This document shows, one piece after another, positions 3,780 through 37,299 of a stretch of 64,000 nt of DNA. The stretch covers positions 19,829,853 through 19,893,852 of the forward strand of contig NC_088296.1 of assembly GCF_032854445.1 (NCBI RefSeq). The letters run 5' to 3'. Source of the DNA: Liolophura sinensis. Lineage: Eukaryota > Mollusca > Polyplacophora > Chitonida > Chitonidae. How positions within the stretch are numbered: position 1 is the first letter of the stretch; each line of letters opens with the position of its first letter. Position numbers and translations under genes: made by a program. Under the pieces are notes generated by a model. That model was given only the letters and a program-made list of their open reading frames with translations, was not told the origin of the DNA and searched no databases.

Positions 3780-4091
3780 TCAAGAACTGTGGACACCTGA
3801 GTCCAAAGCGCGCTCAAACGAGGACCCCCGCGAAGACTGATCTCCAGATTCCGGCGAAACGCTGTCCGGGTTCCGGGTGCTGTTTCTGTCGTGGAGCACA
3901 CACACAGCCTCCGGATTTCCGGCAGAGGTGGGACGTTTATCAAGGAACACACACTTTCTCCTGGTTTTGGCCTCACCAGTGTCTTGGCCCGGGGAATCCC
4001 CAGGTTTTCCCCTGTTTCCTCCTCGCCACGACGTCGTCATGGTAGCCTGAAACTCGCTACCCCGGTTGTCTCCATCACGCTTGGAGTAGAC
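3780..4091 (-). CDS. Receptor terminal exon: distal C-terminal tail (residues 442-544) and stop
   Basis: Acceptor ccttgccattcag at 4092-4104. 103 codons and TGA at 3780-3782. The tail is low in hydrophobics and rich in Ser, Thr, Arg and Gly, including NSTRNPDSVSPESGDQSSRG, and ends DSGVHSS. Such tails are phosphorylated by GRKs and bind arrestin in the family; specific sites cannot be read. The end does not match the E-T-V-M PDZ ligand of mammalian PTH1R. The exon was chosen because it joins in phase with the helix-8 exon and its frame stays open from the acceptor to the stop. Confidence 0.85.
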   Translation of the reverse strand, partial: VYSKRDGDNRGSEFQATMTTSWRGGNRGKPGDSPGQDTGEAKTRRKCVFLDKRPTSAGNPEAVCVLHDRNSTRNPDSVSPESGDQSSRGSSFERALDSGVHSS

Positions 4092-7000
4092 CTGAATGGC
4101 AAGGAATAAAATCAATACTTGATTATGATTCATTTAATTATTTAACTATTTGAAACATGTACGTATAAGGATTTAACGCCACAGAAATTTACACCTGGAC
4201 GGCGGTCAACTTTAGAGCCTATTGAAACCGGAGTGCATGGGGCAGAGCATTGCCCGCCTGCTGTGTCGAGACAGGAACGTGTACCAGACCCACACATCAC
4301 TAAATTTCTGCATCTATACTTGGTTTTATCACTAAATCTCTACATATATACTTGGTTTTATCACTAAATCTCTACAGGTATACTTGGTTTTATCACTAAA
4401 TCTCTACATGTATACTTGGTTTTATCACTAAATCTCTACATGTATACTTGGTTTTATCACTGAATCACCAAATATATATATATCAAAATGTATGTATGTG
4501 TACTAAATAAAATTAATTAACTAAAAGTAAACCAACAAATGGAGATAATACAATAGAATATAGCAGAAAGCCACATTAAAAAAATGCATTTCACTCCAAA
4601 CTCTTTACCACGTAGTGATAAATGTCAGCTCATACCTGAACTCCCCGGTCTTTCTTGCCACTCAGGATGTGCTTGGTTTCGGTAGATCTCGGCCCGTGAA
4701 GTCGGTGACTTTCCGTCAGCTGTCGCTTGCTCCTCTGCCGCGCCATGAAACGACTCCAACCCCGCCGCACTGCTAATAGAACCTGACAAAAAATAAATGA
4801 ACGAAAGAATAAAAGTGGTTTAATGGCTATACTAATAGTAGTATTTCAGAAGATGTTGGCGGAAGACAAGTAGTCCTTCATGAACGAAAATTAGAGTGTA
4901 CAAACATCCCCCAAACGCCGGCCATTCATTGTCATAACGCGTCGTAATTAATTTGATTTTTGGTTTACGCCGTACTCAAGAATATCTTACTTATGCAACG
5001 GGCGGCCAGCATTATGGTGTGAGGAAACCGAGCACAGCACAGGGGAAACCCACGTCCATCCTCAGGTTTCTGAGAGACCTTCCCACGTACGCGCGCCGTA
5101 ATAGTGGGAAATCCAAAACTTTGGGTTTAAATGACACCTCACTCACCCTCTATCCCATACTGAGCCAGTCCAGTACCTTGGGTTGAAATCATAAACTTTT
5201 TCATTGATTGTTTAACATTTCAAAGAAAACATCGAGAGCTGAATTCCAGCAGCGACCTAAGTGGTCAAGGATCTGAAAGTCACAGTGAGTCAGCGCTTTA
5301 AACAAGTAAGCCGGCGATGTCTGTAAACACCTTTTATTGCGCAATACTTTCTTTCAAAGTGTTTAGAGACCTCGCCGACACAGTCTGTAACCTTTAATTT
5401 CATCACTTGCTGTTTCGATATGCAATCACTGTGGATATGTCTCACCTTTTGTGTAAAATTTTCCTTCCGTCACACAGATCTATAGTGATTGCAAATCGAA
5501 ACAGCAAATAAATTACCATGCTGTGATGAAATTTAAGATTACAGACTGAAAAAAAAGAGTAGACCACTCACCTCTTCATTTAGAAAGCAGAAAAACATAG
5601 AGACAAAGAATCCCTGCAAATAGATAAAGAAAAGACATGGGCAAGTGTTTCGGATCTTGTTTCTATTCCAATATTTTGCAAAAGATCTATTTATAATTAA
5701 ACAATACTGTATAATGTCGAAGGGGAAAACACGGAAAGGCTAAAAAAAATTACGGATTTTGTTGAACTTATTTTGGAAACTAAAGACAATCAGAGCTATG
5801 GATGGTTATTAGCTAAAGACAAGGGCTACGCCTATCAGTAATGCAGTGTGAACTGATGTTGACAAAAATCACTTAGACACCCATGGTCAAGTACTTGACG
5901 AACTTCCTGACGTGGAGCTGCAACCGAACCAGCCATAGTAGGTTTTCCGATAGGGCTCACTAGAGGGTGCCACAAACACTGAAACCTATTTATGCAGAAT
6001 GTCGACGCAGGCCCAAGTCGGATTGATTGGTAACACCAAGGCAAATATATCATCCGTTAAAGTTTTGTATATGTTTAGATTGTAATGCTAATTTTGTTAA
6101 TGAACACGCTCCTTGGGATAGTGACTTTGGATTTTGTTTCACCCGTTGACGGTACGAGCTTTGATTTGCATTTTTCACTGACTACTATCTTCTTACAACA
6201 GATGAGGTTACGATTGTTCCCATAATATTGTCACATAAGGCCACGGCAATGTAAATTGTTGTTTTGCGGAATAATTCGTTTTCGAAAACCATCTAATTAA
6301 TGTGAAATATGGACTATCCCAGCTATTTGTTGTGCTTAAGACACATTTACATGATCGGAGAGCGTTGAATAACTGGAAAATCATTTTAAAAAGCATCAGT
6401 ATTGAACAAAATCAATAGGCGGATTTTCAGTTTTGTTTTTATTCTATTTTTAGGATTTTCGTTAGAGTCAGTTCGCCCATAAAACACAAAATAAATCTGA
6501 TGTGGCCTAGGCGGGAATGAACAATGTACAAAACAGCTTATGTCTGAATTACTTTAGACAGAGATAGTTAAACATGAAGGCTCACCTGGAAGGCATTACT
6601 GAACATCTCGGCGTAGAGTTTAGGCACTACCATGTCCGGACTGTCGGAAATGAAGAGGAATATTGTGAAATGGACGCCGAATAGGAGCATTAGGACCAGC
6701 GTAAACTTTGCCAGCTTCCTGGAACAAAGAAGAAGGGTTGATATTTGTTCGTTTCCCTAGAAGCCGTAAAAAGTTAATTCCTTGTATTTATTTACATATA
6801 TTTGATTGCGGTTATAATGTCATGCTGGTGAATTTTTCGTTTATGCGATGGTGACCGTCGACCTGAAGGATTAAGGAGCGTCGTTGATTGCTTATTGTCA
6901 CCAGCGCTCCATAAACAATGAGAGGGGGAGGAGATCTGCAAATTCCGCGTCCACGGTCGGGTTTGAACCCGCGCCTCGAATGTGGGAGCAATACCAGAAA

Positions 7001-10000
7001 GAAAAGATCCGGTCTCAGCGTTTGCTTGTTTTAATACTTCGTACACAAGTATTCTCTTTTATCCAAACATGCAGAATATGACTCAAGTACACAACTTAAT
7101 GTTAAAGAACGTTTTCAGAATCACGTTTTATCAGCGTTGAGACGGGTTTTATGAAACGTTGAACGGCCAAGTGTGTTGTTCAAACGAACATGGTTTTTTT
7201 TTTGTTTTTGCTTTAATACGTCATTAAAGAACAACCCCCTCCACACCCGGCCCCGCTCACCTCACATGACATCAACCATTTCCACCTCGTGTATGGAAAG
7301 GTGGTTATCGCAAAGCTAAATTTGCTGATTCTCTAAAAGTGTGTTACCTGTATTTTTGATTGACGTGTCGCTCCGCCATTGTTAGCCGTGAGCAAAGCGC
7401 CCGAATGATTATTAAAAATAAAATGAATGTGACCTGTGGAAGACAGAAAAGCACAATTAATACACAACAGTGAGAGTAAGCTCAGTTGTATAATTTGCTT
7501 TGTCAAACGTTTTCTCCAACTGCACAACCCGTCAGCTACATGTACTTTAACGTTCTATTTTAACTTAGTGAAATTTAAATACTGTGAAAGAACAACAAGA
7601 AATTGGCTTGAAAAAAGTCGGTTTTCAACTTCATTACTGGCGAAATACCAGTGAACCAGTGAATTTGAGTCATTTGTATTCAAAGGAATGGGCAAGGGAG
7701 TTATATATTTACTAGTTTTGCCTCAAGTGTTTTTTAATTGTGTTTTATCTATCACACTGACATTTCGCCTGGGCACTGGTAGTCAAGTTTTACTATGCGT
7801 GGCATCGAGAGAAACATACTTCAAAGAATACATGAAAAGGAACGCTAAACTGTGTATTCAGCCAAAGTTTACAAAATACCTTATACCATGCGATACTTAC
7901 AATGACCGAGGCGAATATTGGCCCATTAAATAGCCAATAGAATATTCTCTGTTGATATGTTGTCCAGCAACTGAAATGGAGAAGCAAACTTTCGATGGAG
8001 TACTCGATTTCCACTAAGAATTCCACCAAAAGTTGCTCTTCAGAAGAAAAACAGGTGAAAAACATTATGTGGTGTACTGCTATTTACATTTTTTCTTGAT
8101 ACGTTCTTTTATCTGTCACATTTCATTCGATGGTTGTTTTATTTGTATATTTATTAACTCATTTGGTAATCGACGGCACAATTGCTTACTTCGATTAGTC
8201 CTATAGTTTGATTTAGATTAGATTGTTTTGGTCGGATTTGTTTGGACGAACGTTTACTTACTGTAAATCATCCAGGAAAATCCTTACCAGGATCCAGGGT
8301 ATAAGATAAACCAACGGAAAAGCTGAAAAAAGTGAAAAATAACGTATATGAGCTTCTTGGGCACGTACTCCTTAACTCATACAGAAAGTCGATATATATT
8401 TAGAAGGCACTCTAAGAGAGCAAACTTTCGCCACAGATTATAGTACAAAACCATTTGATAATTTATTTATTTGATTGGTGTTTTGGGCTGTTCTCAAGAC
8501 TGTTTCTCTTATAAGACCATCGGCGGCCACCGTTATGGTGTGAGGAACCTGAACTTTGTCTGGTGTTGTACTGGCCCGCCTATGGTTTGAAAAAGCTAGA
8601 TGTGTGTTGTCCTTGTTTAAAATTTCAAACAATTCTTACATAGCTTCTTTAAAAATAACAAAATATGTTTTTGCTTCAAATCCAACGCACTTATATATTA
8701 TTATGTCATGTTTAATAAACATATAACGTAATATGTAAACAAATGGGAAATAACTGCAAACGTGAAGTAACCACTCCGAAAAAAGAAATGTTTAACATTT
8801 AAACATCTCTTTGCAACAGATAATAAACGTGCCTAATTGTAACATGTTAAACTTAAAATCTTACACGTTTATCCAACAACTGCTAATAAGACCGCTCTAT
8901 AATGTGAGCATTTATAAAATATTTTATGTATTTATAAGATAAATCAATATATTTATGAAACATAAGCGTGTATTTGAAAAAAAAAACACACACACACACA
9001 CACCTTGAACACCGTTCAAAATAGTTTATGATTTTCCTGGAATGTATAAAACAGATCAGATTATAGCATTTTGAAATATTGGAATCATTTTAACGCCCTA
9101 AATAGTATAGGTATGAGTGCGATATTTACAGCAAGGCAATAATTTGTTAAGCACGTTTATTATCTGTTGCAGAGATATGTTTAAATGCTAAACATTTGTT
9201 TTTTCAGTGTAAAAGTAGAAAGACCAGCAGAAATGACGCGACACAATTTTATGTTCAGTTATGAATACAGTTCTTGTGAAGTGAATCTGTGCATAAGAAG
9301 GCAAATCATTAAATACCTGTTTAGGGCTTGACAAAAATTGCCGTGATATTATTGGCGATATTCATTATAAATATGGTTCATACAGCTCACAATACAATTT
9401 AATAACAGCTGACTGCTTTTAACACACTGGAAACAAAAATCCAATAAAATCTGCAGGAAAAAAGTAATACAGTTTTCAATGGCCTTTCTTTTTACAGTGA
9501 TTTCCCTTTAAATCAAACACTCCTTACTCCAGCCAAAAAGGATGTAATATCTGATTCCTCTTCTGTCGGTGGATAAAGTGCGGTGGACGAGATTGGTCAA
9601 ATAGAAACCTTCCACTAGGATCCAAGTGTACACTGTGGCGATACTGTACATCCAGATAGTGATGAACAGCTTGCACTGCCAGTGCTGTGTGACAAAGAAA
9701 CATGCAGAGCGTTACAACAGCATTAGTGCCACCTGCATTGCCAATGCCGTGAAAGAAAGAAACACAGCATTTTACAGTGCTGTACATCGATATCGTTATG
9801 AACAGCTTACACTACCAGCCAGTGCTGTGTGATACACAAACACAACAGTACAACGACATTAGTACAGCTTACACTGCAAGTGTTGTGCAACAAAGAAACA
9901 TAGCATTTTACAGTGCTTTACCTCGATATAGTGACGAAGATCTTACACTACCAGTCAGTGCTGTGTGATACACAAACACAACAGTACAACAAGATAAGTA

Positions 10001-13000
10001 CAGCTTACACTGCCTGTGCTGTGCAACAAAGAAACACAGCATTTTACAGTGCTTTACCTCGATATCGTGATGAAGATCTTACACTACCAGTCAGTGCTGT
10101 GCAACAAAGAAACACAACATTGTTACAGTGCTGAACATCGGTATCGTGATGAATAGTTTACACTATTATCGCTACCTGATAACCAAACACAGCAATCCAA
10201 CAACATCAGTACAGGTCGCACTGCCTGTGTTGTGCAACAAAGAAACACGGCAATACAACAGCATTTTTGCATGTACAGAGCTATACATCGACATGGTGAC
10301 AAATAGCACACAATAGCGTTCTGTGATACATAAACAGAACAGTACAACACAAAATGAACATGAACAACTCCTAAGGGTACTGCCATTGTTGTGGCAAAAA
10401 GAATGCTGGTGTTTCTGTTGGCATTTGGTCTTCCACGTGACTTATGTCATTTTTTTCTCACAGTCACATGCTTTACTGATTTTTCATTGATTGCAAAAAT
10501 GAACGGGGAGAGATTACTTTCTCACAAAAACGGCGTAAAGTAGCTTCTCTTCAAACTACACGTAAACCACGTTGCGCACAGTGTTCTAGGTGTATGCATA
10601 AACTAGTCTTGTGGGAATGTGTTCAAATGTGTGTCACCGCTATTCTTGCTGAAACGTCCGGATCTGAAAATTCCATCAGAGAGCAAAATGGGTTCGTGGT
10701 CCGTCGTCTATGCCACCAGGCCATTTTGTTTGTTGTCACAGAATGTGTTTCTTAGGCGGAGTTACCGCATGCATAGCATGGCAGGAGTTAAACACGCGTG
10801 CGCATGTGACACGCACTTTTGTCAGGTGGACAACATTTAAAAAGCTTCTCCATTAGTGCTTCTCTTTACTGGGATAAATTTACGAAAGCAAGTCACGTGG
10901 AAAACCATATGTTAACAGCGACACGAAATTTTACTATTGCTTCTGTCTATCAACTTTGTCCAGTCATACTTCTACTCACTGTGCCTTCCTCTATAAAGAT
11001 AAGAGCCCCGCTACTGCTATAGGTGATGTCAATAGAGAAACCCAGACCCTTCACAAAGAGATACTCCTTGAGAAAGGTCACGATGGCTTTCAAGGTCAGG
11101 GACATGAAGAGATTGACGTGCAGGCGGTTGATCTTACTGTGGAGCCCCCTAAAAGGAAAGTAAAAACATTTATTTCTTTGAAAGATCGTTTCAGCAATTT
11201 AAAGGAACGAATGGGAAATCTCTTTCACCTAACGTAACAATCTGTGTAGACCATTGTTCATCCCTATCACTGAAATATTCTTCCAGACGGAGTAAAATAC
11301 CAGTCAAATAAATAAACAAATAAATTCCTATCATTGCGATGAATTGTTGCCAAAGCGGTAACATGGTGCTTACAATGAACAATGATCGCCTGAACCGGAA
11401 TCGCAACTCCGAAAAGATACTTCACTGACAGCAAGAATATATTCTTGGTGTTTTACGTCGTACTAAATAATTTTTCACTGACATGAGGACGTTTGATATA
11501 AGAAAATTCGTTTTAGTTAACCCTAAAGGCAAATATAATTAGAGGTATGAGGAATTAGAAGTATGAGAAATTACAAATATCAGTATCAGTCCCTGTTTAA
11601 TGCAGATATTAGGAATCTTTAAAAAAAAAAAACAGGAATATGTATTTATTTATTTATTTGATTGGTGTTTTACGCCGTACTCAAGAATATTTTACTTATA
11701 CCACGGCGGCGAAAATTATGGTGGGAGGAAACCGGACAGAACCCGGGAGAAAACCCACGACCATCCGCAAGTTGCTGTCAGACCCTTCCACGTACAGTCG
11801 GAGAGGAAGCCAGCGTTAGCTGAACTCACAGCGACCGCATTGGTGAGAGGTTCTTGGGTCATTACGCTGCGCTTGCGCGCCGGAATGTGTATGTTTCTCA
11901 CATAAACATTCAACACTATCAAAATTGGACGTAAGCAATATTGGTGGACGGCTCAAATAAACGTCATGTATGACTTAAAGTCCTCTTCATCCCCTGTGGA
12001 CAGCTTACTGGCAGAAAGGCGCCAAGAATATGGAAGGAAAAAAATCTAGATCATTACGCTACACGAGGCCACGCCTACTCTCCGTGATTGGAAGATGAGC
12101 GTTCAAAGCGCCAAGAATATGGAAGGAATAGAATCTAGATCATTACACTACACGAGGCCACGCCCACGCTCCGTGATTGAAAGACAACACAAGTTCTAAC
12201 ACAAGTCCAAATCGCTCTTGGACACAGGTATGGCATATGCAGTTCCATCAACTGTACCACATGGAAGACTTTTAAGGCGTAAAATTCATGTAAGGCGAAA
12301 TTACTGTTTAGGGCGAGACTGATGTTTTATCATTTTGAAGAAAAGTCACTCTTAGGAGGGAACTGTACCCTCTTTTATAAAGTACATTCACGACAGCATT
12401 AGTTAATATGGATTTGCAATAAAGTGGATGCCCGATTAGGAGTAAACTTTATACAAGCAAATAAATATGCGGTATCCGTTACAGATTGCCTAAAAAATAT
12501 TGCTAAGTTGATGAGAAAACTATAATAATGGATGAATTTAATCGGCATAGATTGAATCTGATAAAACCGTGAAAGAGAAAGACTTTAAAATTAGCGGTTC
12601 TCCGGCCGTACGTGGGAAGGTCACAACAGCCTGCCGAAGGTCGTGGGTTTCCCCCGGGCTGTGCCCGGTTTCCTCCCACCATAATGCTGGCCGGCGTCGT
12701 ATAAGTGAAATATTCTTGAGTACGGCGTAAAACGCCAATCAAATAAATAAATAAATAAAATTAGCGGTCGTGATACTTATACCTTTGACCTAAGCATACT
12801 GGGGTAATTTAGGAACCACTACTGATCTGCTTGTTTTCACTGTGAAGTACTGGGTGTCCAACATGTAGGCCTTTGCAGTACATGTAATTTGCTGGAGTGC
12901 ACCACCTCCTTTATTTAATTTCTTTTTATAAATGGTGTTTAACCGCATGTTCAAGAGTTTATCACCTACACAATAGCAGTAACTTGTCTGAGTGGATAAA

Positions 13001-14558
13001 ACGAGAAACCTCCGGATACACCACTAGTCTATTTGCAGTACATGGATTTCACACAAACCGTTTTGATTCTCAAAAATAATGTTAAACACCAATCAAAGAA
13101 ATAACTCCCCCCCCCCACGCAGAAAGTAGACTTATATAACTATATAGATAGCAAAAATCAACGATGTGAATAATTCAATTTACCTGCAGAACAACATGAT
13201 AAGGACAGCTATGAAGAGTGTGGTGAGCGAGATCCCGTACCCGATCTTGTACATCAGTCGGATTTTGGGCATGTGCGTCTGAAACCAGAAGGGATACAGT
13301 AGTTAAAGAGGGTAACGGATATGATACATTGGTTACTGATGGAAAGCAAAAGGGATACGGTGGTTAAAGAGGGAAACGAGAGCAATCCATTGGTCACTGA
13401 CGGAAACCAGAAGGGATACAGTGTTTAAAGAGGGTAGCGAAAGTTACGCATTGATTACTGAGGGAAAACAGAAGGCATACAATGTTTAAAGAGGGTAACG
13501 AAAGTGATGCATTGGTTACTGATGGAAACCAGAAGGGATACAGTGTTTAAAGAGGGTAACGAAAAGTTACGCATTGATTACTGAGGGAAACCAGGAGGGA
13601 TACAGTGTTTAAAGAGGGAAACGAAAGTGATGCATTGATTACTGATGGAAACCAGAAGGGATACAGTGTTTAAAGGGTATAACGAAAGTGATGCATTGGT
13701 TTCTGAGGGAAACCAGGAGGGATACAGTGTTTAAAGAGCTCAGCGAAAGTGATGCATTTGTTACTGAGGGAAACCAGAAGGGATACAGTGTTTAAAGAGC
13801 TCAGCGAAAGTGATGCATTTGTTACTGAGGGAAGCCAGAAGGGATACAGTGTTTAAAGGGTATAACGAAAGTGATGCATTGGTTTCTGAGGGAAACCAGA
13901 AGGGATACAGTGTTTAAAGAGCTCAGCGAAAGTGATGCATTTGTTACTGAGGGAAACCAGAAGGGATACAGTGTTTAAAGAGCTCAGCGAAAGTGATGCA
14001 TGCGTTACTGAGGGAAACCAAAAGGGATACAGCGGTTAAAGAGGGTAATGAGAGGAATGTATTGCTTACTGAGGGAAAAAGGAATATAGTCCTTAAAGAG
14101 GTAAACTGCAGTAAATTACCGTTTTTCCTGGTGTATCTGGAAACCCTTTCAATTAACATCACTGTACTTTATCACCAAATTCGACATACGCCATGATGCT
14201 AAGTGCATGTGTACTGTTGTAAAAGTCCATTAAAATTTACGAAGACATAAAAGGCAGCAGCATAGAGAGTCTCTAAAACGATAAGTGATGACAGTGTAAT
14301 GGTTGGCAGCAACTCAGCACTCCCCTGACAATCTACTCAAGGACTCAAGAGTCTCTCACCAATGCGGTCGCTGTGAGTTCAAGTCCAGCTCATGCTGGCT
14401 TCCCCTCCGGCCGCATGTGTGAAGGTTTGCCACCAACCTGCGGATGGTCGTGGGTTTCCCCAGGGCTCTGCCTGGTTTCCTCCCACCATAATGCTGGCCG
14501 CCGTCGTATATGTGAAATATTCTTGAGTACGGCGTGAAACACCAATGAAATAAATACA

Positions 14559-14589
<31 letters not shown>

Positions 14590-17500
14590 ATCTACTCAAG
14601 GTAAAGCCATAGCTGAGCCATAAGAAACTGGACCCTATGGAAAACCATTATACATTAACAGTGTCAGAGGTATAATATAACGCCTTCGCTTTTAAATCCT
14701 GAATCACTGAGCTCTGTTTAGCGTTAAACACCTTAAAACGACTATAATGTATAAACGAGCAAACAACAATTAATCACTTACGTTAACTTTAGCAGATGGT
14801 AATTATGGTGTGAAACAAGTACTGACTTAGGAAGGAAGGAACAGCTATTTAAAAAAGTGGAGCTCGCTTGTAACGTTCTTGGCGCCTCAACTCTACGGCT
14901 ATATAAATTGAAATGCCAGTAACATGCGGATAGTCGTGAGTTTCCCACGGACTTTGCCCGGTTTCTTCATATCACAATGCTGGCCACCGTCGTATAAGTG
15001 AAATATTACTCAGCACGGCATAAAACATCAATCAAATAAGTAAATACATAAATAAATAACTAAATAAAAATATAAATCGAAATAAGCTGTGTGTTTGTCC
15101 TAAAAACTGCAGTTGCAGAGAATCCAAAAGTGGTTTGGTGAAAGTTATACTGGGCATATGCAATTGTTCTGAAGTCAAACCGAGTTATGTGCATCGAACA
15201 CTAGTCAGAGGTCGGGCGAATAAAGGAATTAGAGAGAGAGAGAAAAAACGCACCGTTCCATCGCCTCTCTTCATTGCATTTGGCGCACAGTTACTGTCGT
15301 CTATAAATATCACCACCATCAAAGTGATAACAACAGAGATACAACTTCAAGCGCAAAGGAAAAGTCCAGCGAGACGAGGCTGGTAAACACATCTTTCATA
15401 TGCTGGACAGAAACTCATTATTTTGCCGTGCACGTTATTAACGAATTTATCACACACGTAAATTTACTCAATGAAAAGTCACTTGTACAATGAAAATAAA
15501 GTTATGTGTCTCTCGGCCTGCAGCAAATTCTGAATATCGGCTGAAAACCTCTCCCAATTGTCTCCCTTAGGAGTCTTCACCAGAAATTGGACTGACCGAG
15601 TTAAATTATTTACATCCCGAAGGCGTACTTTACACTCTACTAATTGATGTCTGTAGGTCTGGTTGTGTACTTATATCGTTCGTGGATAGGGTCCAGGGGA
15701 AAAGATTGATCGTTACCGAGCACACCGCCACAAAGGTATAGCAGGGATGATCCACATGAAGAGTTTGAACTTCATTTATGTACGGAGAAAGTCTTTGGTA
15801 AACAAGTGACGAACTTTCCCCAGTTGTGACCTACAGATATGCACACAATATTGTTGGAGGACAACGTTAGACTATGCAGACGTCCTGACGCGCCTTGCCG
15901 ACCAAGGCGCAAGAAAAAAGGGTGGGGGAATCTCATCTTGTGTAGCTCGTGTGTCATAGCAACCTAGAGCAAGCACCTCGGCACGCTCTCTTGTCAATTT
16001 ACCTGAGTTTTGGTTTTAATTTAACTACTCATGTAACGCTTGAAACTACACGTAAAAACTTATACGACTTAATTAGTATAAGAATTTATACAAATTAAGT
16101 CGTAGAATTAGTTAAAGCAAATGCACTGACAATTCATAAGTACTAACGCGCCAGTTTAAACGCGACTTTAAAAACGCAACAAGCGAAGGAACCACAACAA
16201 TAAAACCTCCCAAAAGGGGAATTTGTCCACTAACCAGTAGGTCCATGGGAATCCCCAGAGGACATCGTGAGTAGTTTGTGAAGGGATGGTCAGAGGAAGG
16301 GCGATGATACCAAGTTCCGTTAGAGAGGCACTCCTTGACAGCAAACTCTGTAATAAACATACATCGAATCATTGGTTCATTGATCGCTAAGAGGCATTAG
16401 GGGAGGGTTCACATCCGACACTGGGAAGATAATTTTTAGATTTCCCTGGTCGTGGGGCACTCGGCAACGATCGAGTGGCCGCTTACTTAGGGTAACGTCC
16501 GCTGCCAAACAATTATCTTCCATCTGAAGGAATATATTGTATTTTAAGCAGTAATCAGCAAAAAATAAATAACTTAATTAATAAAATAAACTAAATAAAA
16601 ATTCTCTTTGCACTCACTTGTATTCTTACTTCTAAACCAAATTTGTTATGGTTTATTAAAACATATATGTATCCTTGACCCCACCACTTGTAGAACGTGT
16701 GTGTCACGTGTGAAAAAGGTCGTCCGATACATGACAGAGGTCGATGGTTTATAACCATAAAACCGACCACCATCGTATTAGTGAAAAATTATTGAGTATG
16801 ACCCTGAAGGGACACAGGATCGGTGCTGATTGACTGACATTGGAGATAGGGTTCCCTGGGTAAAACCCAGAACTCTTTGTCACGCTGGAATAAACGTATC
16901 ATAACTAAAATCAGCTTTGACTAAGCGTAGCCTGGGTTTGCCTATCTCTCACACCAGCCAATCAAAATCGATTCTGTATCCCTTTAAGCAACGTTCAAAT
17001 CAAATCATCTACACGCAGATATCACCAATTTGTGTTTCTTGTTTTATCTCTATAAATGAACAGCTACAGGCTGTTAGAGAATAAGTTGAAAACTGAATCT
17101 AAGCTAAACTACACGTAAGTCTGTCATCAGATGTTTGAGATCTCAGTGCGAATCAACAATGTAAAAAAAGAAGAAGAAGTTTGATTTAGAGTATGTATTG
17201 CGTCAGTTAGGCAATGGCCTTTGTGTAAGAAACAAAACATAATAGACATTTAATGCTTCTAAGAGACGAAGCTAGACATTTCAATTGATCTCGTTCTGGC
17301 CAGGTATGTAAGAAGAAAGTCTATGCCATCATTTAACCACCACAGCGAAACCATATGGATAGAGTTTAACGAAGTCACAGGAGTTAAAATAGAAACACAG
17401 ACAACTTCAGGAAACATGATCTCAAGCGTAGTTTAGAAAATAATCTCTTTTTCGTCTATGAAAAGCCTTTGAAGCAAAAGTTTATTTGAGTTTCAGTGAA

Positions 17501-20500
17501 CATTTAACCATTAAATGTTTGCACATGTCTATAGATGGAAACTTCAAAGGTCACGCCATTTTATAGGGCACAATGAAAGAAATCACTGTTGAAAACTAAA
17601 ATGACATCAGGCCAGATTCTTCCAGAAGAAACTCTGACAGGGAGACAGAAATTATGTGAATAAGACGGCTTTAATGTATAATACTGTTAAAAGAAATATG
17701 TGATATAATCTGTTTTCCTTAAATTTTCAAATTCATTTCTACTTTCATATTTGTTTTTGTTTTTCATATTTAAAAATCTAATATTTCCCATACTAGAATC
17801 TGTTGACGTCAGTTGATTTGTGACAAGGACAGTTGACGACAATGTTTTTTGCTAACAAAAGTATATTTGAGAGATCCCATAAGCATGACTGCTTTCGCAT
17901 TAGTGCAACTGCACTTAAAACCAATAACAATGACGACTTATTAAATTATTATTTGAACAGATAAGCATGTACATGGTGTACACGTACGTGTAGCAACAAA
18001 TAATCTAGTTGATACACGTACGTGTACACGAAATTTTATCCAAACATTAAAACAGTAGATAAACCTGGCCCTGTTATTTAAGCGAAAACTGTTATTTGAG
18101 CACAAGGCAAGACACCATTGAATCAATCAAGACGTTTACTTGAACTGATTTTGGAAAAATTGTTTGGGAAAATACGCATATGAAGCTGAGCTATAAATTA
18201 AAGTACACGCATTATATGCATACCTGCCACGTGGGCTTGATTCTTCATTACAGAGAACGAAACAGAATCTGAGGTCAGAGAGAATCTGGCGGGGTTCGCC
18301 ACATGGAGAATGATATCTTTCCTGGAGATATATCGGTCATTGGTCATTCAGATCAGGAAACATGCCAGCGCCATTCTCAGAAGCTTTAGTCGGTCTTCGA
18401 CATTGCATTGGTTTAATGTGATTGTAAGGTAAATGTTATGACAACACAGCATTTTGAGTATTTCTCGAGCAGTGACGTCTAATAAATTGCAATTAATAGC
18501 ATTACTGCATTTGTTTTCGCCCAATTCTGCTTAAGCCACAGGGCTAGGGGACAGGTATGTATCTATTACTTGTGCATTTACATGAACATTTAGAATAAAA
18601 CCATGGCTGAGGTAAACTGACAAGAGGTCGTATTTCACCGGTTACAAGTGACCATTTGCCAGCTTTCTCACTGTCGTCGCTGCTCTGTTCTGTATGCTGT
18701 GCGTCTATCACACTGCAGTTGCTGCTCTGACCTTACTCTCTATGCTGTACGTCTATCACACTGTGGTCGCTGATCTGGCCTTACTTTTTATTCTGTACGT
18801 CTATGACACTGTCGTCGCTGCTCTAGCCTTACTTTCTATGCTGTAAGTCTATTACACTGTCGTCGCTGATCTGGCCTTACTCTCTATGCTGTACGTCTAT
18901 CACACTGTCGTCGCTGCTCTGGCCTTACTCTCTGCGTTGTACGTCTATCCCACTGTGGTCTCTGCTCTGTTCTTACTCTCTATGCTGTGTGTCTATCACA
19001 CTGTGGTCGCTGCTCTGGCCTTACTCTCTATGCTGTACATCTATCACACTGTGGTCGCTGATCTGGCCTTACTTTCTATGCTGTACGCCTATGACACTGT
19101 CGTCGTTGATCTGGCCTTACTCTCTATGCTGTACGTCTATCACACTGTGGTCGCTGCTCTGGCCTTACTCTCTATGCTGTACGTCTATCACACTGTCGTC
19201 ACCGCTCTGTTCTTACTCTGTATGCTGTACGTCTATCACACTGTCGTCGCTGCTCTGGCCTTACTCTCTGCGTTGTACGTCTATGACACTGTGGTCGCTG
19301 ATCTGGAATTACTCTCTATGCTGTACCTTTTTTGACATTGTCGCCGCTGCTCTGTGCTGTACATCTATGTCACTATCGTCGCTGCTCTGTTCTTACTCTG
19401 TATGCTGTGCTTCTTTAATTATATTCGGTCATAGCGGTCAAAACTTTAAACCAGTGTGGTTGTAGGTCTTGTTTTGTATTTGATCGGTCGACATTTTGCG
19501 GTCATAACAGATTTATCCAAACGCAAATTGTTTCAGTTCTACATAGGTATACTGAGTAATGAACGAAACGGATGGCAAAAACTACAAGACCCGTTTATGG
19601 TAAGCCTTTTATAACACTAGTTCTTGGATTAAAGAAACTATTACACCTGGGGAGGTACATTCCAAACCTTCTCAAAATTCAAATTTGAAATTAGAAAGCT
19701 TGTCAGGGAAAAGCTCACGGTTTACAGGAATAGAAACTGGATAGCTTTGCTCTTTAGAATTTTAAACACATTCCAGAAAGCAAAACAAGCTAAATAAAAG
19801 GCCAAGACAATAAACGAGCGTGCAACTTACCCGCTGTGTTAAAGTTGCTAATATACTCAGGACATGGTTGCCTGGCGACAGTTCCAGATGGCGTCGTCGG
19901 CCAACACATGATGTCATCCCATGTTCCCGGACAGTAGTCTCCCCCTGATTTACAAATAAGCGTTATTCAGAAATTTTCACTGTCCAATACATGAAGTGAA
20001 AAAATAAAATCTTCAAAACCAATGTAAATCATTGAAAATAATTTATAGTGCTTCTCTGCTGCTCTTCACACCGAAAGACAAACTTAAAATTTTAATTTAT
20101 CGTTTTCTGATAGAAATTTTCTTTCACATTTATTTTCATCGAATTACATGGAAGAACTTACAGTTTATTCTGACAGTGCAAAGATCAGTGACGCAACAGC
20201 GATCACTGTTTTTAGCTATGTGCATTTACAGATACACTTGAATTATTTTTGGACAAAACACTTGATTTACAAGTACATGTAGGAAGAAATTTTTTTTTTT
20301 TTTTTTGGATTGTTGTTTTACGCCGTACTCAAGAATATTTCACTTATACGACGGCGGTCAGCATTATGGTGGGTGGAAACCGGGCAGAACCCGGGAGAAA
20401 CCCACGACTATCCGCAGGTTGCTGACAGACCTTCCCACGTACGGCCGGAGAGGAAGCCAGTATAGGCTGGTCTTGAACTCACAGCGACCGCATTGGTGAG

Positions 20501-22059
20501 AGGCTTTTGCGGTCACTACGCTGCGCTAGCGCGCTAACCGACTGAGCCACGGAGGCCCCTGTAGGTAGAAATACAAGTGTATTTGACTTTATTGGATGTT
20601 AATGTTGTCAGCAGCACCAATAATCCCTACCACAGTATCAAATGTTTTAGATACTGACTCCTTTATTTGTTTATTTAACTGTTTAGTTTACCGCTGTAGT
20701 TGGATGGTCTTGAGGATATTGACGCGTGCCAGTCCCTCCATGGGACGTATTTATATCAAAACTGTATTTGCGTCATCAAATTCAAAATATTTCAGGTTAT
20801 TTCAGGTTAAATTACAAGTAAAAAAAAATTAAAATTCTTCTGGAGAATTTTGGTCCTCTTCTTCTCAGGGGCAAGCAAACCGTTCGCTTAAAGCGAAACT
20901 GCCTGAAATTATTATTCTAAAGTAAAAAGAAGCCCAAAGATTCTGCCAATTGGAAAATGCTCAAATAGACATATAGCTGTTCCCAAGAACTGTTCATTTA
21001 TGTTACGTCGGTCTGGATAAAGAGTGGAGGAGGTCGGTGTGCTTAGGATCAAACACTACGCACACCTCCTCACTCATAAAATCGATGCCAAGACATCAAA
21101 AATAAAAAAAGTGTGTACATTACGTCAACGATCTAATTTTCAACGATCTTTTCTTAAATTACATGTATCCTTGCCTTCACAATGACACAATACCCCCAGG
21201 CCCAAATTAAGTAAGACACAGAGCAAAGACCATTGGAATGTAAATTCCAATGAAAACAAAATTCAATTATCTTAAGAAGTTCTTGGATTAAACAAAATGC
21301 AGCTAAATACATGTTATGGAGTTAAGGCGGGCTCTGTGGGCCGGACAGATAATGTTGGATTGCAGTGATGTGAAACCTAGTTTGACGCTTATACTTTAAG
21401 CTTTGGATGACATTAGCTCTGAGCCTCTAATGCCTCCATATAAACAGCAAAAGAAAGCTATTCCAACAAGCTATGTACGGCATATATATATGGTCTTTGA
21501 TTTTTAATACTGGTTTGATATTTCTTTCGCCTTCCCCGTATCACTGAGAACTGTTGTCCTGTATTTGCAGACTTTATATAATAATTTAATGTAAGCGTTG
21601 AATGTTGTTTGGGAAACAGGAACGAGGTAAACTCAAAAAAAGTCGTTTTTTGTGAAATCAAAGTTTAAAACCTAAATATTTTGCGTCGTTTATGGATCAT
21701 GTGACTTTAAATGTGTCGTATTAGATACTACATCATAAATGACTCCAGGTTGCATTGTTTGCATGCAAAAATAAGTACTTGAAGAAATTTTCAGATTTTG
21801 ACTAAAGATAACATCTCAGTGGTTTGTAGAATCGGCTCCAAGTCTTCCGCTTGTTGACCATGAACGTTCATTGTGGCTGTGGTATACGAGAGTGTATTCT
21901 AACACTTAGATTTAGCTACCCACCTTCTACTGGAGGCTCTGCCAGCAGCTGTTTCTCACATCGGTACTGCGCCTCTAACAGCGACCGGTTCTGCAGGACC
22001 TGCGCCTCTTGCCTGTCCATGGCGAGGATGGATGGTATAGGGCTTCTACAAACTGTCGT
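3780..22059 (-). CDS. Family B1 (secretin-type) GPCR, PTH/PTHrP-receptor-like; 13 exons, 5' end not found
   Basis: Plasma-membrane receptor for a peptide hormone, expected to signal through heterotrimeric G proteins. Seen: 13 exons (1,635 nt, 544 residues plus TGA) joined at GT/AG sites whose phases all agree. Ectodomain residues 1-121 carry six family cysteines (C34, C50, C59, C73, C90, C112; family pairing 1-3, 2-5, 4-6), the WD and CWP motifs, and sequons at N24, N93 and N108. TM1 is about 129-152, TM2 162-180, TM3 213-238 with the WILVEG motif, TM4 254-276, TM5 294-318, TM6 335-357, TM7 373-389, then helix 8 and a tail of about 150 residues. CPEYISNFN, YRKL.K.TLVL..LFGVH and FQGFFV...CF.N.EV match PTH receptors best. 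Missing: Met and signal peptide. Alternatives are another B1 subfamily (calcitonin/CGRP, PDF, CRF/DH44); class B1 itself is near certain. Confidence 0.95.
4297..4470 (+). repeat. 32-bp tandem repeat in the last intron, ~5.5 copies
   Basis: Unit tatcactaaatctctacat plus gtatacttggtt. The copies are nearly identical, with only a few substitutions. It lies in the 544-bp intron before the terminal exon; nothing else was recognised in that intron. Confidence 0.9.
4636..4782 (-). CDS. Receptor exon: helix 8 and proximal tail (residues 393-441)
   Basis: 147 nt, acceptor ttttttgtcag, donor GTATGA, phase 0 at both ends. It encodes VLLAVRRGWSRFMARQRSKR, matching the family E-V-x-x-x-x-x-x-W-x-R pattern of helix 8 after N390-E391-E392, followed by a basic, hydrophilic tail. 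Confidence 0.93.
4953..5100 (-). repeat. SINE-A, truncated at both ends
   Basis: Contains tttacgccgtactcaagaat, gcggccagcattatggtg and the acc-ttcccacgtacg module on the reverse strand. It lacks the (TTTA)n tail and the tRNA-like head. Confidence 0.85.
5381..5548. repeat. Fold-back element in the intron before TM7
   Basis: Left arm 5381-5430 (cagtctgtaacctttaattt onward) and right arm 5484-5548 are inverted repeats with few mismatches. The right arm has an extra ~15-bp insert. The loop is about 53 bp. It ends 24 bp from the 42-nt exon, so a hairpin in the pre-mRNA would form just downstream of that exon's donor. Confidence 0.85.
5572..5613 (-). CDS. Receptor exon: 42-nt TM7 micro-exon (residues 379-392)
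   Basis: 42 nt, acceptor tatctatttgcag, donor GTGAGT, phase 0 at both ends. It encodes GFFVSMFFCFLNEE, the core of TM7. A 14-codon TM7 exon is a known conserved feature of B1 receptor genes (CRF1, calcitonin and PTH1 receptors), and its in-frame skipping gives known splice variants. Phe replaces the usual Tyr in the Y-C-F string. Confidence 0.96.
5614..6585. other. Intron, no feature recognised
   Basis: Non-coding AT-rich intron between the TM7 and TM6 exons. No SINE, tandem repeat or plausible extra exon was seen. Confidence 0.7.
6586..6718 (-). CDS. Receptor exon: TM6 and ECL3 (residues 334-378)
   Basis: 133 nt, acceptor ctttgttccag, donor GTGAGC, ending in phase 0. It encodes KLAKFTLVLMLLFGVHFTIF, very close to the family K-L-x-K-S-T-L-V-L-x-P-L-F-G-V-H. 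The Pro of the P-x-x-G helix-kink motif is Leu (L345), while G348 and T340 are retained. ECL3 follows, and the exon closes with YAEMFSNAFQ, leading into TM7. Confidence 0.96.
6719..7347. other. Intron, no feature recognised
   Basis: Between the TM6 and TM5 exons. The short frames on both strands (such as 6792-7046 and 6884-7081) have no family features. The neighbouring intron 7434-7900 is likewise featureless. Confidence 0.7.
7348..7433 (-). CDS. Receptor exon: TM5 and ICL3 (residues 306-334)
   Basis: 86 nt, acceptor cttccacag, donor GTAACA, ending in phase 2. It encodes VTFILFLIIIRALCSRL, the inner half of TM5, then TMAERHVNQKY, joining into YRKLAK of the next exon. The family usually has N-F-x-x-F at the start; Val-Thr replaces the Asn. 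ICL3 is the principal G-protein contact loop in this family. Confidence 0.93.
7901..7970 (-). CDS. Receptor exon: ECL2 and start of TM5 (residues 282-305)
   Basis: 70 nt, acceptor tccatttcag, donor GTAAGT, ending in phase 0. It encodes CWTTYQQRIFYWLFNGPI and FASVI. C283-W284 is the conserved ECL2 pair; C283 should form the disulfide with C213 of TM3. The G-P-I motif opens TM5. Confidence 0.95.
8262..8322 (-). CDS. Receptor exon: TM4 (residues 262-282)
   Basis: 61 nt, acceptor with an A/T-rich tract then cag, donor GTAAGT, ending in phase 2. It encodes FPLVYLIPWILVRIFLDDL. With the previous exon the TM4 core reads G-W-T-F-P; most family members have G-W-G-x-P, so the second Gly is replaced by Thr. 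Confidence 0.95.
8453..8565 (-). repeat. SINE-A, old and truncated
   Basis: tttatttatttgattggtg followed by diverged central sequence (ctgttctcaagactgtttct, ggcggccaccgttatggtg). Only the 3' part remains. Confidence 0.75.
8789..9194. mobile_element. Fold-back (MITE-like) element, ~44-bp inverted arms
   Basis: Left arm 8789-8832 begins tgtttaacatttaaacatct and ends taataaacgtgc. Right arm 9151-9194 is its reverse complement with about four differences. The total span is about 406 bp, in the intron between the TM4 and TM3 exons. No coding capacity and no clear target-site duplication. A (CA)n tract lies inside at about 8988-9003. Confidence 0.75.
9528..9684 (-). CDS. Receptor exon: TM3, ICL2 and start of TM4 (residues 210-262)
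   Basis: 157 nt, acceptor ctttgtcacacag, donor GTAAGG, ending in phase 1. It encodes HWQCKLFITIWMYS, with C213 as the TM3 cysteine that pairs with ECL2, then YTWILVEGFYL, the near-invariant TM3 motif with E234, then the ICL2 segment HRTLSTDRRGIRYY and the start of TM4. WILVEG rather than WLLVEG matches PTH receptors. Degenerate copies of the acceptor and first ~40 nt of this exon are tandemly repeated in the adjoining intron (9685-10340). Confidence 0.95.
9685..10340 (-). repeat. ~137-bp tandem array made of TM3-exon acceptor copies
   Basis: Landmark gctgtacatcgatatcgt recurs with variants at about 9777, 9913, 10050, 10128 and 10278. The units contain diverged copies of the intron end (gtttctttgt, then cacag) and the first ~40 nt of the TM3 exon. 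On the minus strand, acceptor-like cores occur near 9871-9900, 10003-10040 and 10207-10236. The genuine exon end 9640-9684 reads as the first unit of the series. No copy has the complete TM3 exon. Confidence 0.85.
10341..10979. other. Intron remainder, no feature recognised
   Basis: Sequence between the exon-derived array and the donor of the TM2 exon; nothing beyond short unsupported frames. Confidence 0.6.
10980..11148 (-). CDS. Receptor exon: ICL1, TM2 and ECL1 (residues 153-209)
   Basis: 169 nt, acceptor tttccttttag, donor GTGAGT, ending in phase 0. It encodes intracellular loop 1 and TM2 (RLHVNLFMSLTLKAIVTF), then a long extracellular loop 1 of about 30 residues ending IFIEEGT. The usual L-H-C-T-R-N-Y-I-H string is L-H-S-K-I-N-R-L-H here, so the final His is kept but the Arg and Tyr are lost. 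A long ECL1 is typical of PTH receptors. Confidence 0.93.
11270..11325 (+). repeat. SINE-A 3' fragment
   Basis: gaaatattcttccagacgga, then accagtcaaataaataaaca: the degraded last ~55 bp of SINE-A. A second possible fragment, tcttggtgttttacgtcgta, in the opposite orientation, lies at 11441-11480. Confidence 0.6.
11641..11882 (-). repeat. SINE-A, nearly full length
   Basis: (TTTA)n tail, the 3' and central modules, then tgaactcacagcgaccgcat and the start of the tRNA-like head (cattacgctgcgcttgcgcg). The head stops within the A-box side. Confidence 0.92.
12019..12186 (+). repeat. 89-bp direct duplication
   Basis: gcgccaagaatatggaagga recurs at 12019 and 12108, followed by ctagatcattac, acacgaggccacgcc and ctccgtgattg in both copies. 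The two copies are about 90% alike by eye. Confidence 0.85.
12599..12756 (+). repeat. SINE-A, 5'-truncated, with 12-bp target-site duplication
   Basis: Flanked by aaaattagcggt at 12587-12598 and 12757-12768. Starts in the ccggccgtacgtgggaagg module and ends aataaataaataa. The exact duplication shows retroposition by target-primed reverse transcription. Confidence 0.95.
13184..13278 (-). CDS. Receptor exon: stalk and TM1 (residues 122-153)
   Basis: 95 nt, acceptor cttctggtttcag, donor GTAAAT, ending in phase 2. It encodes THMPKIRLMY, then KIGYGISLTTLFIAVLIM, the hydrophobic TM1 with the family G-Y-x-x-S-L signature, then LFC. A 61-bp tandem array begins immediately at the acceptor on the intron side. 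Confidence 0.95.
13279..14092 (-). repeat. 61-bp tandem array abutting the TM1 exon acceptor, ~13 copies
   Basis: Plus-strand unit gaaaccagaagggatacagt, then gtttaaagagggtaacga, then gtgatgcattggttactg. It begins exactly at the acceptor base of the TM1 exon. On the minus strand each unit holds cccttctggtttccctcag, a pyrimidine tract and CAG like the real acceptor cccttctggtttcag. The frame 13993-14196 crosses the array and is not considered a gene. Confidence 0.92.
14343..14588 (+). repeat. SINE-A with 13-bp target-site duplication
   Basis: Flanked by aatctactcaagg at 14330-14342 and 14589-14601. Contains ctctcaccaatgcggtcgct, the B-box region gagttcaagtcc, all central modules and a long (AAAT)n tail. 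It lacks only the first part of the tRNA-like head. Confidence 0.96.
14925..15070 (+). repeat. SINE-A, 5'-truncated and diverged
   Basis: acatgcggatagtcgtgagt, tgctggccaccgtcgtataa and an AAAT-like tail, more diverged than the copy at 14343. Confidence 0.85.
15071..16062. other. Intron, no feature recognised
   Basis: Short frames (15135-15386 plus, 15772-15957 minus) have no recognisable motifs or supporting splice structure. Confidence 0.6.
16063..16104. repeat. 18-bp hairpin
   Basis: tacgacttaattagtata (16063-16080) and tatacaaattaagtcgta (16087-16104) are reverse complements with one mismatch around a 6-nt loop. It lies 131 bp intronward of the ectodomain exon's donor. Confidence 0.8.
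16235..16347 (-). CDS. Receptor exon: distal ectodomain, NGTW and NYS motifs (residues 84-121)
   Basis: 113 nt, acceptor tgtttattacag, donor GTTAGT, ending in phase 0. It encodes FAVKECLSNGTWYHR and TNYSRCPLG, carrying the last two conserved cysteines (C90, C112), the family N-G-T/S-W motif and two N-glycosylation sequons (N93, N108). The end leads straight into the juxtamembrane stalk of TM1. An open frame continues past the donor but has no family features. Confidence 0.93.
16805..16986. mobile_element. Short TIR element (MITE-like), ~182 bp
   Basis: The left end (tgaagggacacaggatcggt onward, ~55 bp) and the right end (reading gcctatctctcacaccagcc to tgtatcccttta) are inverted repeats with moderate divergence. 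There is no coding capacity in the ~70-bp core. A target duplication could not be fixed. A degraded SINE-A-like 3' end (about 16760-16803) adjoins it. Confidence 0.7.
16987..18410. other. Intron, no gene; paired palindromes at 17979-18026
   Basis: AT-rich intron sequence. The only structure seen is the palindrome tacacgtacgtgta at 17979-17992 and again at 18013-18026. Confidence 0.6.
18411..18675 (+). repeat. Element D, most complete forward copy
   Basis: Modules in order: gttatgacaacacagcattt; cagtgacgtctaataaattg; cccaattctgcttaagccac; tgcatttacatgaacattta; aaaccatggctgaggtaaac; tgacaagaggtcgtatttca; then the terminal tcactgtcgtcgctgctctg. The same modules recur in both orientations across the window. 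No coding capacity; class unknown. Confidence 0.85.
18676..19425 (+). repeat. 48-bp minisatellite grown from the end of element D, ~15 copies
   Basis: Unit tatcacactgtcgtcgctgc, then tctggccttactctctatgc, then tgtacgtc. Single-copy element D ends elsewhere carry one such unit. Since 48 is a multiple of three, the array gives long frames (18886-19335, 18989-19465) with 16-residue repeats that have no independent support as genes. Confidence 0.93.
19831..19944 (-). CDS. Receptor exon: ectodomain core with WD and CWP motifs (residues 46-84)
   Basis: 114 nt, acceptor ttgtaaatcag, donor GTAAGT, phase 1 at both ends. It encodes YCPGTWDDIMCWP, then a loop, then PCPEYISNFN. These are the C50, W54/D55, C59-W60-P61 and C73-P74 landmarks of the B1 hormone-receptor domain. 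Human PTH1R has CPDYIYDFN in the same place, which is one reason for the PTHR-like call. Confidence 0.95.
20291..20559 (-). repeat. SINE-A, full length, poly-A type tail
   Basis: Reverse-strand copy of about 269 bp flanked by tgtaggaagaaat (20278-20290) and tgtaggtagaaat (20560-20572), a 13-bp duplication with one difference. The head has a perfect pol III A box (TGGCTCAGTCGG, at 20538-20549) and a B-box-like GAGTTCAAGACC (20469-20480). The tail is a run of about 17 A rather than (AAAT)n. Best reference copy in the window. Confidence 0.96.
20573..21923. other. Intron, no feature recognised
   Basis: AT-rich sequence between the SINE and the N-terminal helix exon. The frames (20596-20832, 21458-21661) show no family features. 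Confidence 0.6.
21924..22059 (-). CDS. Receptor exon: N-terminal ectodomain helix (residues 1-45)
   Basis: Acceptor ttctttgcag and donor GTGGGT flank 136 nt, ending in phase 1. It encodes the amphipathic N-terminal helix of the hormone-binding domain, with the stretch RQEAQVLQNRSLLEAQ followed by YRCEK, where C34 is the first conserved cysteine. PTH receptors have the similar AQAQCEKRL at this place. N24 sits in an N-R-S sequon. C4 lies outside the usual six-cysteine set. The acceptor is phase 0, so an upstream exon with the ATG and signal peptide is expected. Internal Met14 is not a credible start because it would leave no signal peptide. Confidence 0.9.
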
Positions 22060-36282: not shown

Positions 36283-36987
36283 ATGGTGGCAGAGGAATCA
36301 CAAGAATACTGTACCCTGCCCGTGGGTGGGATTGTTGAGCTCTGATCCCTAGCCTATCGCGGTCGGGATAACAGTGGCGGGAAAGGCATCACAAGAATAC
36401 TGTATCCTGCCCGTGGGTGGGATTGTTGAGCTTTGATCCCTAGCCTATGGCGGTCGGGATAACAGTGGTGGGAAAGGCATCACAAGAATACTGTACCCTG
36501 CCCGTGGGTGGGATTGTTGAGCTTTGATCCCTAGCCTATCGCGGTCGGGATAACAGTGGTGGGAAAGGCATCACAAGAATACTGTACCCTGCCCGTGGGT
36601 GGGATTGTTGAGCTCTGATCCCCAGCCTATCGCGGTCGGGATAACAGTGGTGGGAAAGGCATCACAAGAATACTGTATCCTGCCCGTGAGTGGGATTGTT
36701 GAGCTCTGATCCCCAGCCTATCGCGGTCGGGATAACAGTGGTGGGAAAGGCATCACAAGAATACTGTATCCTGCCCGTGGGTGGGATAGTTGAGCTCTGA
36801 TCCCTAGCCTATCGCGGTCGGGATAACAGTGGTGGGAAAGGCATCACAAGAATACTGTACGCTGCCCGTGGGTGGGATTGTTGAGCTCTGATACCTAGCC
36901 TATGGCGGTCGGGATAACAGTGGCGGGAAAAGCATCACAAGAATACTGTACGCTGCCCGCGGGTGGGATTGTTGAGCTCTTATCTCT
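36283..36987 (+). repeat. 91-bp minisatellite, ~7.7 near-identical copies
   Basis: Unit: ggcgggaaaggcatcacaag, aatactgtatcctgcccgtg, ggtgggattgttgagctttg, atccctagcctatggcggtc, gggataacagt. Copies differ at only a few positions. GC-rich against an AT-rich background. The first part overlaps the non-coding frame 36048-36338. Confidence 0.96.
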
Positions 36988-37299
36988 AGAGGCTGATTAA
37001 TACGACAAAGCTTTTAGAGACCAACATTTCCTGTCTACAGTGGGATGGGCTCTTATGCTGTCTGCATTGGTTCAGGTTAGGGTTGGATGAACAGATTTCA
37101 GACTAGTACCAGTTTACAATGCCTGTATGGGAGGCTTTGGTGACAATATTAAGCGGTAGGAAGCGCTTCCCTGACCGTTTGCGGAGTTTGATTTTCATGG
37201 AAGACAACTTGTCCTCTACCTATAATTGTACGTTACAACCGTTAAAGTCGGTTAGAACTAAATTTAACGAGTTAGGAAAACAACCATTTCTCGAAACCT

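Follow-up and report, generated by a model that had tools for sequence, protein, structure and literature searches.

A divergent class B1 receptor gene of Liolophura sinensis, probably of the protostome Cluster B kind

The class B receptor gene carried by the 64,000-nucleotide stretch of Liolophura sinensis DNA analyzed here (the window) had been described, in a preliminary description, as a member of the PTH/PTHrP receptor branch, with consequences for the age of PTH-type signalling outside vertebrates. The question raised by the locus is whether its product is a PTH receptor in the vertebrate sense or a member of a broader group. Such a group was named Cluster B in arthropods and nematodes by Cardoso et al. 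(2014; PMC3961327), who present it as comprising homologues of the glucagon, PTH and secretin receptor group and who reclassified insect “PTHR-like” receptors into it. Among lophotrochozoan class B1 receptors, Cluster B is reported to be the richest in genes, with four types in molluscs and with members in annelids and brachiopods too (Cardoso et al. 2020; PMC7200681).

A splice model read from the window gave a receptor gene of 13 exons running on the minus strand from 22059 to 3780. All 12 introns are of the GT/AG type with compatible phases, and the reading frame of 545 codons, stop included, yields 544 residues with no stop before the TGA at 3782-3780. A spliced profile aligner was applied to 19 kb of genomic DNA, minus strand, with a profile built from eight human class B1 receptors and lacking the receptor gene. 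This profile returned exons 2-12 at 298.1 bits, and the junctions agreed with the splice model except for the start of exon 2 (19966), the start of exon 6 (9675) and a local end in exon 12. On five control stretches of 19 kb from the window, the same profile scored 20.8-28.4 bits; these were the plus strand of the gene stretch and, for two more stretches, the plus and minus strands. A ten-human profile, also lacking the receptor gene, scored 309.5 bits; its alignment ran from LLEAQYRC in exon 1 into exon 12, covering the first 36 nt of the latter, and every junction matched the splice model. The exons and the support for each are given below, where “paralogues” refers to five genes on contig C11 of the same genome that are described later.

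21924..22059, minus strand: exon 1 (136 nt), first ectodomain Cys (LLEAQYRCEKQ); splice model, 58 of the 136 nt recovered by the ten-human profile; the only Met within the exon is at 22020; no signal peptide.
19831..19944, minus strand: exon 2 (114 nt), ectodomain (DYCPGTWDDIMCWP...PCPEYI); splice model, Pfam and ten-human profile; start at 19966 according to the eight-human profile.
16235..16347, minus strand: exon 3 (113 nt), ectodomain (EFAVKECLSNGTW...NYSRC); splice model, Pfam and both human profiles.
13184..13278, minus strand: exon 4 (95 nt), TM1; splice model and both human profiles; 95 nt in four of five paralogues.
10980..11148, minus strand: exon 5 (169 nt), ICL1, TM2 and ECL1 (SKINRLHVNLF); splice model and both human profiles; 169 nt in three of five paralogues.
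9528..9684, minus strand: exon 6 (157 nt), TM3 (WILVEGFYL) and ICL2; splice model and ten-human profile; start at 9675 according to the eight-human profile; 157 nt in four of five paralogues (148 for one of them in a later model).
8262..8322, minus strand: exon 7 (61 nt), TM4; splice model and both human profiles; 61 nt in four of five paralogues and 62 nt in the frame-broken fifth.
7901..7970, minus strand: exon 8 (70 nt), Cys-Trp of ECL2 and start of TM5; splice model and both human profiles; 70 nt in four of five paralogues and 69 nt in the frame-broken fifth.
7348..7433, minus strand: exon 9 (86 nt), TM5 and ICL3; splice model and both human profiles.
6586..6718, minus strand: exon 10 (133 nt), TM6 (KLAKFTLVLMLLFGVH), ECL3 and start of TM7; splice model and both human profiles.
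5572..5613, minus strand: exon 11 (42 nt), TM7 (GFFVSMFFCFLNEE); splice model and both human profiles; 42 nt in three of five paralogues.
4636..4782, minus strand: exon 12 (147 nt), helix 8 and tail; splice model, first 36 nt recovered by both human profiles.
3780..4091, minus strand: exon 13 (312 nt), C-terminal tail and TGA stop; splice model, the frame being open and the acceptor good.

The human-receptor profiles gave no homology support for exon 13, nor for exon 12 past its first 36 nt. The 13 in-phase, stop-free exons of the preliminary description were borne out by the splice model and its introns; the end coordinates were exact, the strand being minus, and the product had the length given. 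Where four exons of 70 nt or shorter had been counted, three were found (61, 70 and 42 nt). The TM3 motif WILVEG was present, in exon 6, and the last motif, in TM7, was off by one residue (FQGFFVSMFFCFLNEEV).

The 544-residue reading begins with a Thr inside exon 1 and includes neither a start Met nor a signal peptide; counted from the first Met, the product would have 531 residues. As exon 1 has a strong acceptor and lacks a signal peptide, at least one 5′ exon is missing from the model. A crude scan of the 42 kb upstream of the gene in the window (22.06-64 kb) revealed no convincing signal-peptide exon. Eight ATG candidates passed the crude filter, and four of these had a phase-0 donor, two being nested readings of one exon and another resembling the dispersed repeat described below. 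Beyond this missing 5′ exon, nothing favors the notion that the gene was put together by chance from exon-like stretches or is a pseudogene, which is extremely improbable given that the spliced alignments to the human profiles argue against it for exons 1-12, that 298 bits were obtained against the far lower scores of the five control stretches, and that the 61- and 70-nt exon sizes recur in four of five paralogues.

Several repeats were observed in and around the gene. A 61-bp minisatellite of 13.1 copies (13281-14078) abuts the acceptor of exon 4; on the minus strand its units carry a repeated pyrimidine-rich TTCTGGTTTCCCTCAG-like stretch, and it looks like the intron's own 3′ splice-site region multiplied. 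Intron 2 contains a 48-bp minisatellite of 13.9 copies (18689-19354), which underlies a plus-strand open frame of 212 amino acids (18827-19465) that looks spurious. The core of a dispersed repeat (GTTTTACGCCGTACTCAAGAATATTTCAC...), SINE-like by its look, was found in five copies within 3 mismatches, where none is expected by chance (12672-12733, 14479-14540, 20315-20376, 43015-43076 and 44632-44693), three of them in introns of the receptor gene. Outside the gene, a 91-bp tandem repeat of 7.8 copies with 95% match occupies 36284-36989, and a weak Rfam tRNA match (30 bits against a gathering score of 29) at 47939-47993 was not found by ARAGORN.

Pfam searches of the predicted protein matched HRM at 71 bits and 7tm_2 at 184 bits, confirming the earlier assignment to the class B GPCRs. 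The ectodomain contains six Cys residues in the splice model, and the TM3-ECL2 Cys pair is kept together with H2.50, E3.50, T6.42, G6.50, H6.52 and Q7.49. By its sequence, the gene is a class B1 peptide-hormone GPCR. When compared with solved structures, the protein scored highest with PTH2R (244 bits) and PTH1R (up to 243 bits), followed by the glucagon receptor and GLP2R (217 bits each), the secretin receptor (208 bits) and the calcitonin receptor (193 bits). Identity to human receptors was 35.0% for PTH2R, 34.5% for PTH1R, 32.3% for GLP2R, 30.6% for SCTR and 28.2% for CALCR. In the ectodomain, identity was 41% to PTH1R, 40% to PTH2R, 39% to CRHR1, 37% to CALCR and 25% to the secretin receptor, i.e. 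40-41% for the PTHRs versus 25-39% for the other eight human receptors.

The gene is not alone in its genome (609 Mb in 632 contigs, the window lying on contig C2). A search with the predicted protein gave 37 exon matches, of which 12 were the gene itself, 24 lay on C11 and one lay on C6 (E 0.0015). Spliced models resolved five further genes of this kind, all on C11, near 9.60, 12.59, 12.81, 20.21 and 24.01 Mb. Over the TM part these are 43-49% identical to the receptor gene, versus 35-36% for the human PTHRs, and, as the feature list records from models that are partial, they repeat several of its exon sizes. The gene therefore appears to be one of at least six in this animal, six being a lower bound. 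A Pfam search of the genome gave 87 exon matches, part of whose loci were read; since the receptor gene itself is absent from these 87, such counts are lower bounds.

The 9.60-Mb paralogue (C11:9.59-9.62 Mb) is 48% identical to the receptor gene over 343 columns. It contains two TM6-like exons, near C11 9,617,641 and 9,620,961, of which the first resembles a partial decoy; the exon may have been duplicated or may be an alternative one. In the 12.59-Mb paralogue (L009; C11:12.585-12.595 Mb) the frame is apparently broken in exon 8 and there is no usual donor after exon 6, and this copy seems to be a pseudogene or an assembly error. C11 also holds CRHR- and CALCR-like genes and one that we take to be PDFR-like, so that C11 holds every other class B1 gene among the loci read, Cluster B or otherwise, and C2 the receptor gene. 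A possible exception is found at C6:75,481,250-75,510,921, where a 7tm_2 match (E 8.3e-7, one internal stop) lies ∼30 kb from, and on the same strand as, the ectodomain match to the predicted protein mentioned above; this is perhaps one further class B1 gene.

In a tree with eight human receptors only, the receptor gene fell on the PTH, glucagon and secretin receptor side (90/91), with values of 50/23 for its place within that side. Five further trees included the paralogues, four of them built from the TM part with 20-21 rows and one from the full length. Human was the only deuterostome and the invertebrate rows came from the chiton's own genome, which makes these trees a limited test. L009 was included in the first tree and left out of the other four because of its apparently broken frame and the lack of a usual donor after exon 6; rows CAL_5.46 and CAL_2.89 were likewise confined to the first tree. 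The profile for the first tree included the receptor gene and the profiles for the other four did not. In the earlier spliced models, from which the TM identities come, and where it enters the first three trees, the 9.60-Mb gene ends with the apparent decoy TM6 exon; where it enters the last two, the second TM6-like exon takes its place. Loci L001-L008 were compared by tblastn only, and L020 (19 bits) and L021-L028 (36-69 bits) entered no tree.

In all five trees, the receptor gene and the C11 paralogues formed one clade (99/99, 100/99, 100/99, 100/98 and 100/99), within which the receptor gene had the longest end branch each time. Its partner was the 9.60-Mb paralogue in each of the four trees where that gene is present (98/94, 97/95, 99/97 and 100/97). 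The clade and the human PTH, glucagon and secretin receptors were together separated from the CALCR-, CRHR- and PDFR-like rows at 98-100/97-99, which is the position expected of Cluster B. The human PTH, glucagon and secretin receptors formed one group, and the paralogue clade stood beside it (88/85, 89/89, 87/89, 94/93 and 97/95), and the receptor gene did not group with PTH1R/PTH2R against the glucagon and secretin receptors. Approximately unbiased (AU) tests rejected placement of the receptor gene alone with PTH1R/PTH2R five times out of five (p 4.2e-6, 4.8e-4, 4.2e-3, 4.6e-5 and 1.2e-5). Placement of the whole clade with the PTHRs was not firmly rejected (p 0.174, 0.139, 0.162, 0.071 and 0.048, the last being the full-length test). 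The same holds for union of Cluster B with the glucagon receptors (p 0.070 and 0.117 in two tests), and union with the secretin receptors was rejected in two tests (p 0.019 and 0.028).

The gene does not look like a newly found PTH receptor; its placement alone with PTH1R/PTH2R was rejected throughout (p ≤0.0042). On the earlier reading, the gene would be a true orthologue of vertebrate PTH1R/PTH2R, all of the protostome group having arisen from the PTHR line once that line had separated from the glucagon and secretin receptors. The best solved-structure scores, the top human identity of 35% and the ectodomain identities all point to the PTHRs, and the clade placed with the PTHRs stays above p 0.05 in four of five AU tests. 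This orthology is nonetheless unlikely, as the best trees unite the PTH, glucagon and secretin receptors without the clade, the full-length AU test falls just below 0.05, and the receptor gene by itself is excluded from the PTHRs in every test. The earlier placement in the PTHR branch accordingly held in part: the gene lies on the same large side of the tree as the PTHRs, away from the CALCR, CRHR and PDFR-like families, and a place for it inside the vertebrate PTHR branch itself is not supported, its clade standing in the best trees beside all three human groups. On present evidence the gene appears to be as much kin to the glucagon and secretin receptors as to the PTH receptors. The PTH/PTHrP-receptor description is therefore probably too narrow, Cluster B being the most likely assignment. 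We consider it quite likely that the gene is an intact class B1 GPCR and a divergent member of protostome Cluster B (GPS-type, iPTHR); as the comparison covered human and own-genome sequences, the assignment to Cluster B derives from tree topology, not from grouping with published sequences.

The divergence of the gene extends to its core residues. Residue numbers (2.46, 3.43, 5.50 and so on) and the roles attached to them are our presumed assignments. Residues changed in the gene are R2.46 (to I), R2.60 (to K), N3.43 (to V), H3.55 (to T), N5.50 (to T), K5.64 (to R) and P6.47 (to L). Of these, R2.46, N3.43 and N5.50 are kept by all ten human receptors; position 2.60 differs in GCGR and CALCR, and position 7.49 differs in GLP2R. 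With several core residues of the ten human receptors replaced, the product may not be activated in the classical way. When columns constant in the 14 other rows were counted, the receptor gene departed at one of 29 (N5.50), as compared with 1/29 for its sister, 5/33 for CALCR, 3/31 for CRHR1, 2/30 each for PTH2R and GLP2R, 1/29 for GLP1R and 0/28 for each of the other eight rows. Leaving out the receptor gene and its sister together gave 34 columns constant in the 13 others, at six of which one or both depart; both depart at three, PTH1R positions 217, 219 (R2.46) and 295 (N3.43). The corresponding counts for other pairs were 11/39 for CRHR1 and CALCR, 3/31 for GLP1R and GLP2R, 2/30 for PTH1R and PTH2R, and 0/28 twice. 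The receptor gene and its sister are hence unusual at particular core positions, though they are not the most deviant pair.

Such changes might indicate a gene that is intact and losing its core activation residues, either drifting out of use or serving as a decoy receptor with weak or altered signalling. The changed R2.46, N3.43, N5.50 and P6.47, the longest end branch in the clade in every tree and the single departure at N5.50 from an otherwise constant set would fit this. It is quite improbable, however, because 12 introns and 544 codons are intact, the sister has the same losses of R2.46 and N3.43, and human CALCR and CRHR1 deviate from more of the constant columns. Human PTH2R likewise lacks P6.47, and F in place of Y7.57 is common to all five Cluster B rows, so neither of these two changes is a sign of decay. 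Within the preferred Cluster B assignment, one tentative and rather doubtful possibility is that the receptor gene and its sister form an intact sub-branch that has lost part of the otherwise constant class B1 core: both lack R2.46 and N3.43, and the receptor gene also lacks N5.50 and P6.47. The animal would then have a class B1 receptor whose activation switch is remodelled or whose coupling to G proteins has changed.

In class B1 receptors, the peptide binds first the ectodomain and then the TM core, upon which TM6 opens and mainly Gs is activated. The gene structure, domains, disulfide cysteines and clade with own-genome paralogues described above were observed directly for this gene, and by analogy with its family the ligand would be a PXXXamide/QSGamide (iPTH) type peptide, amidated at its C terminus, that docks on the Cys-rich ectodomain. 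The N terminus of the peptide would then enter the TM bundle, and TM6 would open to activate a G protein, probably Gs, with cAMP as the expected signal. Since the receptor gene and its 9.60-Mb sister form a diverged sub-branch with altered core residues, their coupling or ligand preference may differ from those of the other paralogues.

PXXXamide/QSGamide (iPTH) peptides are the likely ligands of Cluster B receptors. The peptide iPTH of Tribolium, formerly PXXXamide, is reported to activate two iPTHRs with EC50 values of 63 and 413 nM (Xie et al. 2020; PMC7224569). A 2021 survey of nemerteans, brachiopods and phoronids (PMC8557429) treats iPTHRs and Cluster B as equivalent and suggests QSGamide as the ligand in lophotrochozoans, describing the pairing as unconfirmed by assay at that date; a limited literature search found no assay of QSGamide/PXXXamide on a lophotrochozoan receptor. 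In the oyster, which has known PXXXamide/QSamide precursors, a PTHR orthologue is said to be specific to the female gonad (PMC8398477), and in Lymnaea two Cluster B receptors are reported to be expressed in the central nervous system and not in the heart (PMC11551080). Searches of the chiton genome with PF01279 (PTH, E ≤1) and PF02323 (ELH, E ≤0.001) gave no match; control genomes were equally without a match, so this is no sign of absence.

With Cluster B already in print, the question of how old PTH-type signalling is has this receptor group as published evidence, and the antiquity of the receptor lineage is not a new claim. With the present gene, a group connecting protostome peptide systems with the signalling of vertebrate PTH, glucagon and secretin gains a member resolved to its exons. 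The gene also suggests that “PTH receptor outside vertebrates” is better expressed as a common relative of three vertebrate receptor groups. At least six paralogues in one genome, with one pair carrying unusual core residues, provide a useful set for matching PXXXamide/QSGamide peptides to receptors.

Compared with the Cluster B/GPS-type receptors as described in print (PMC3961327 and PMC7200681), the gene shares class B1 identity, a branch beside the vertebrate PTH, glucagon and secretin receptors and the occurrence of several copies per lophotrochozoan genome, but it has a long branch and lacks several core residues. Human PTH1R and PTH2R are nearest to it by solved-structure score, at 34.5-35.0% identity, and PTH2R shares the loss of P6.47, whereas the chiton gene has F at Y7.57 and SKIN in ICL1 where PTH1R/PTH2R have CTRN. 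Its sister at 9.60 Mb shares with it the absence of R2.46 and N3.43 and an E at position 464 (NEEV), but keeps N5.50, P6.47 and H3.55 and has M at H6.52. The Tribolium iPTHR with its iPTH/PXXXamide ligand was presented as PTHR-type in the original report (PMC7224569) and as Cluster B by others, and the same class of ligand is predicted for the chiton receptor.
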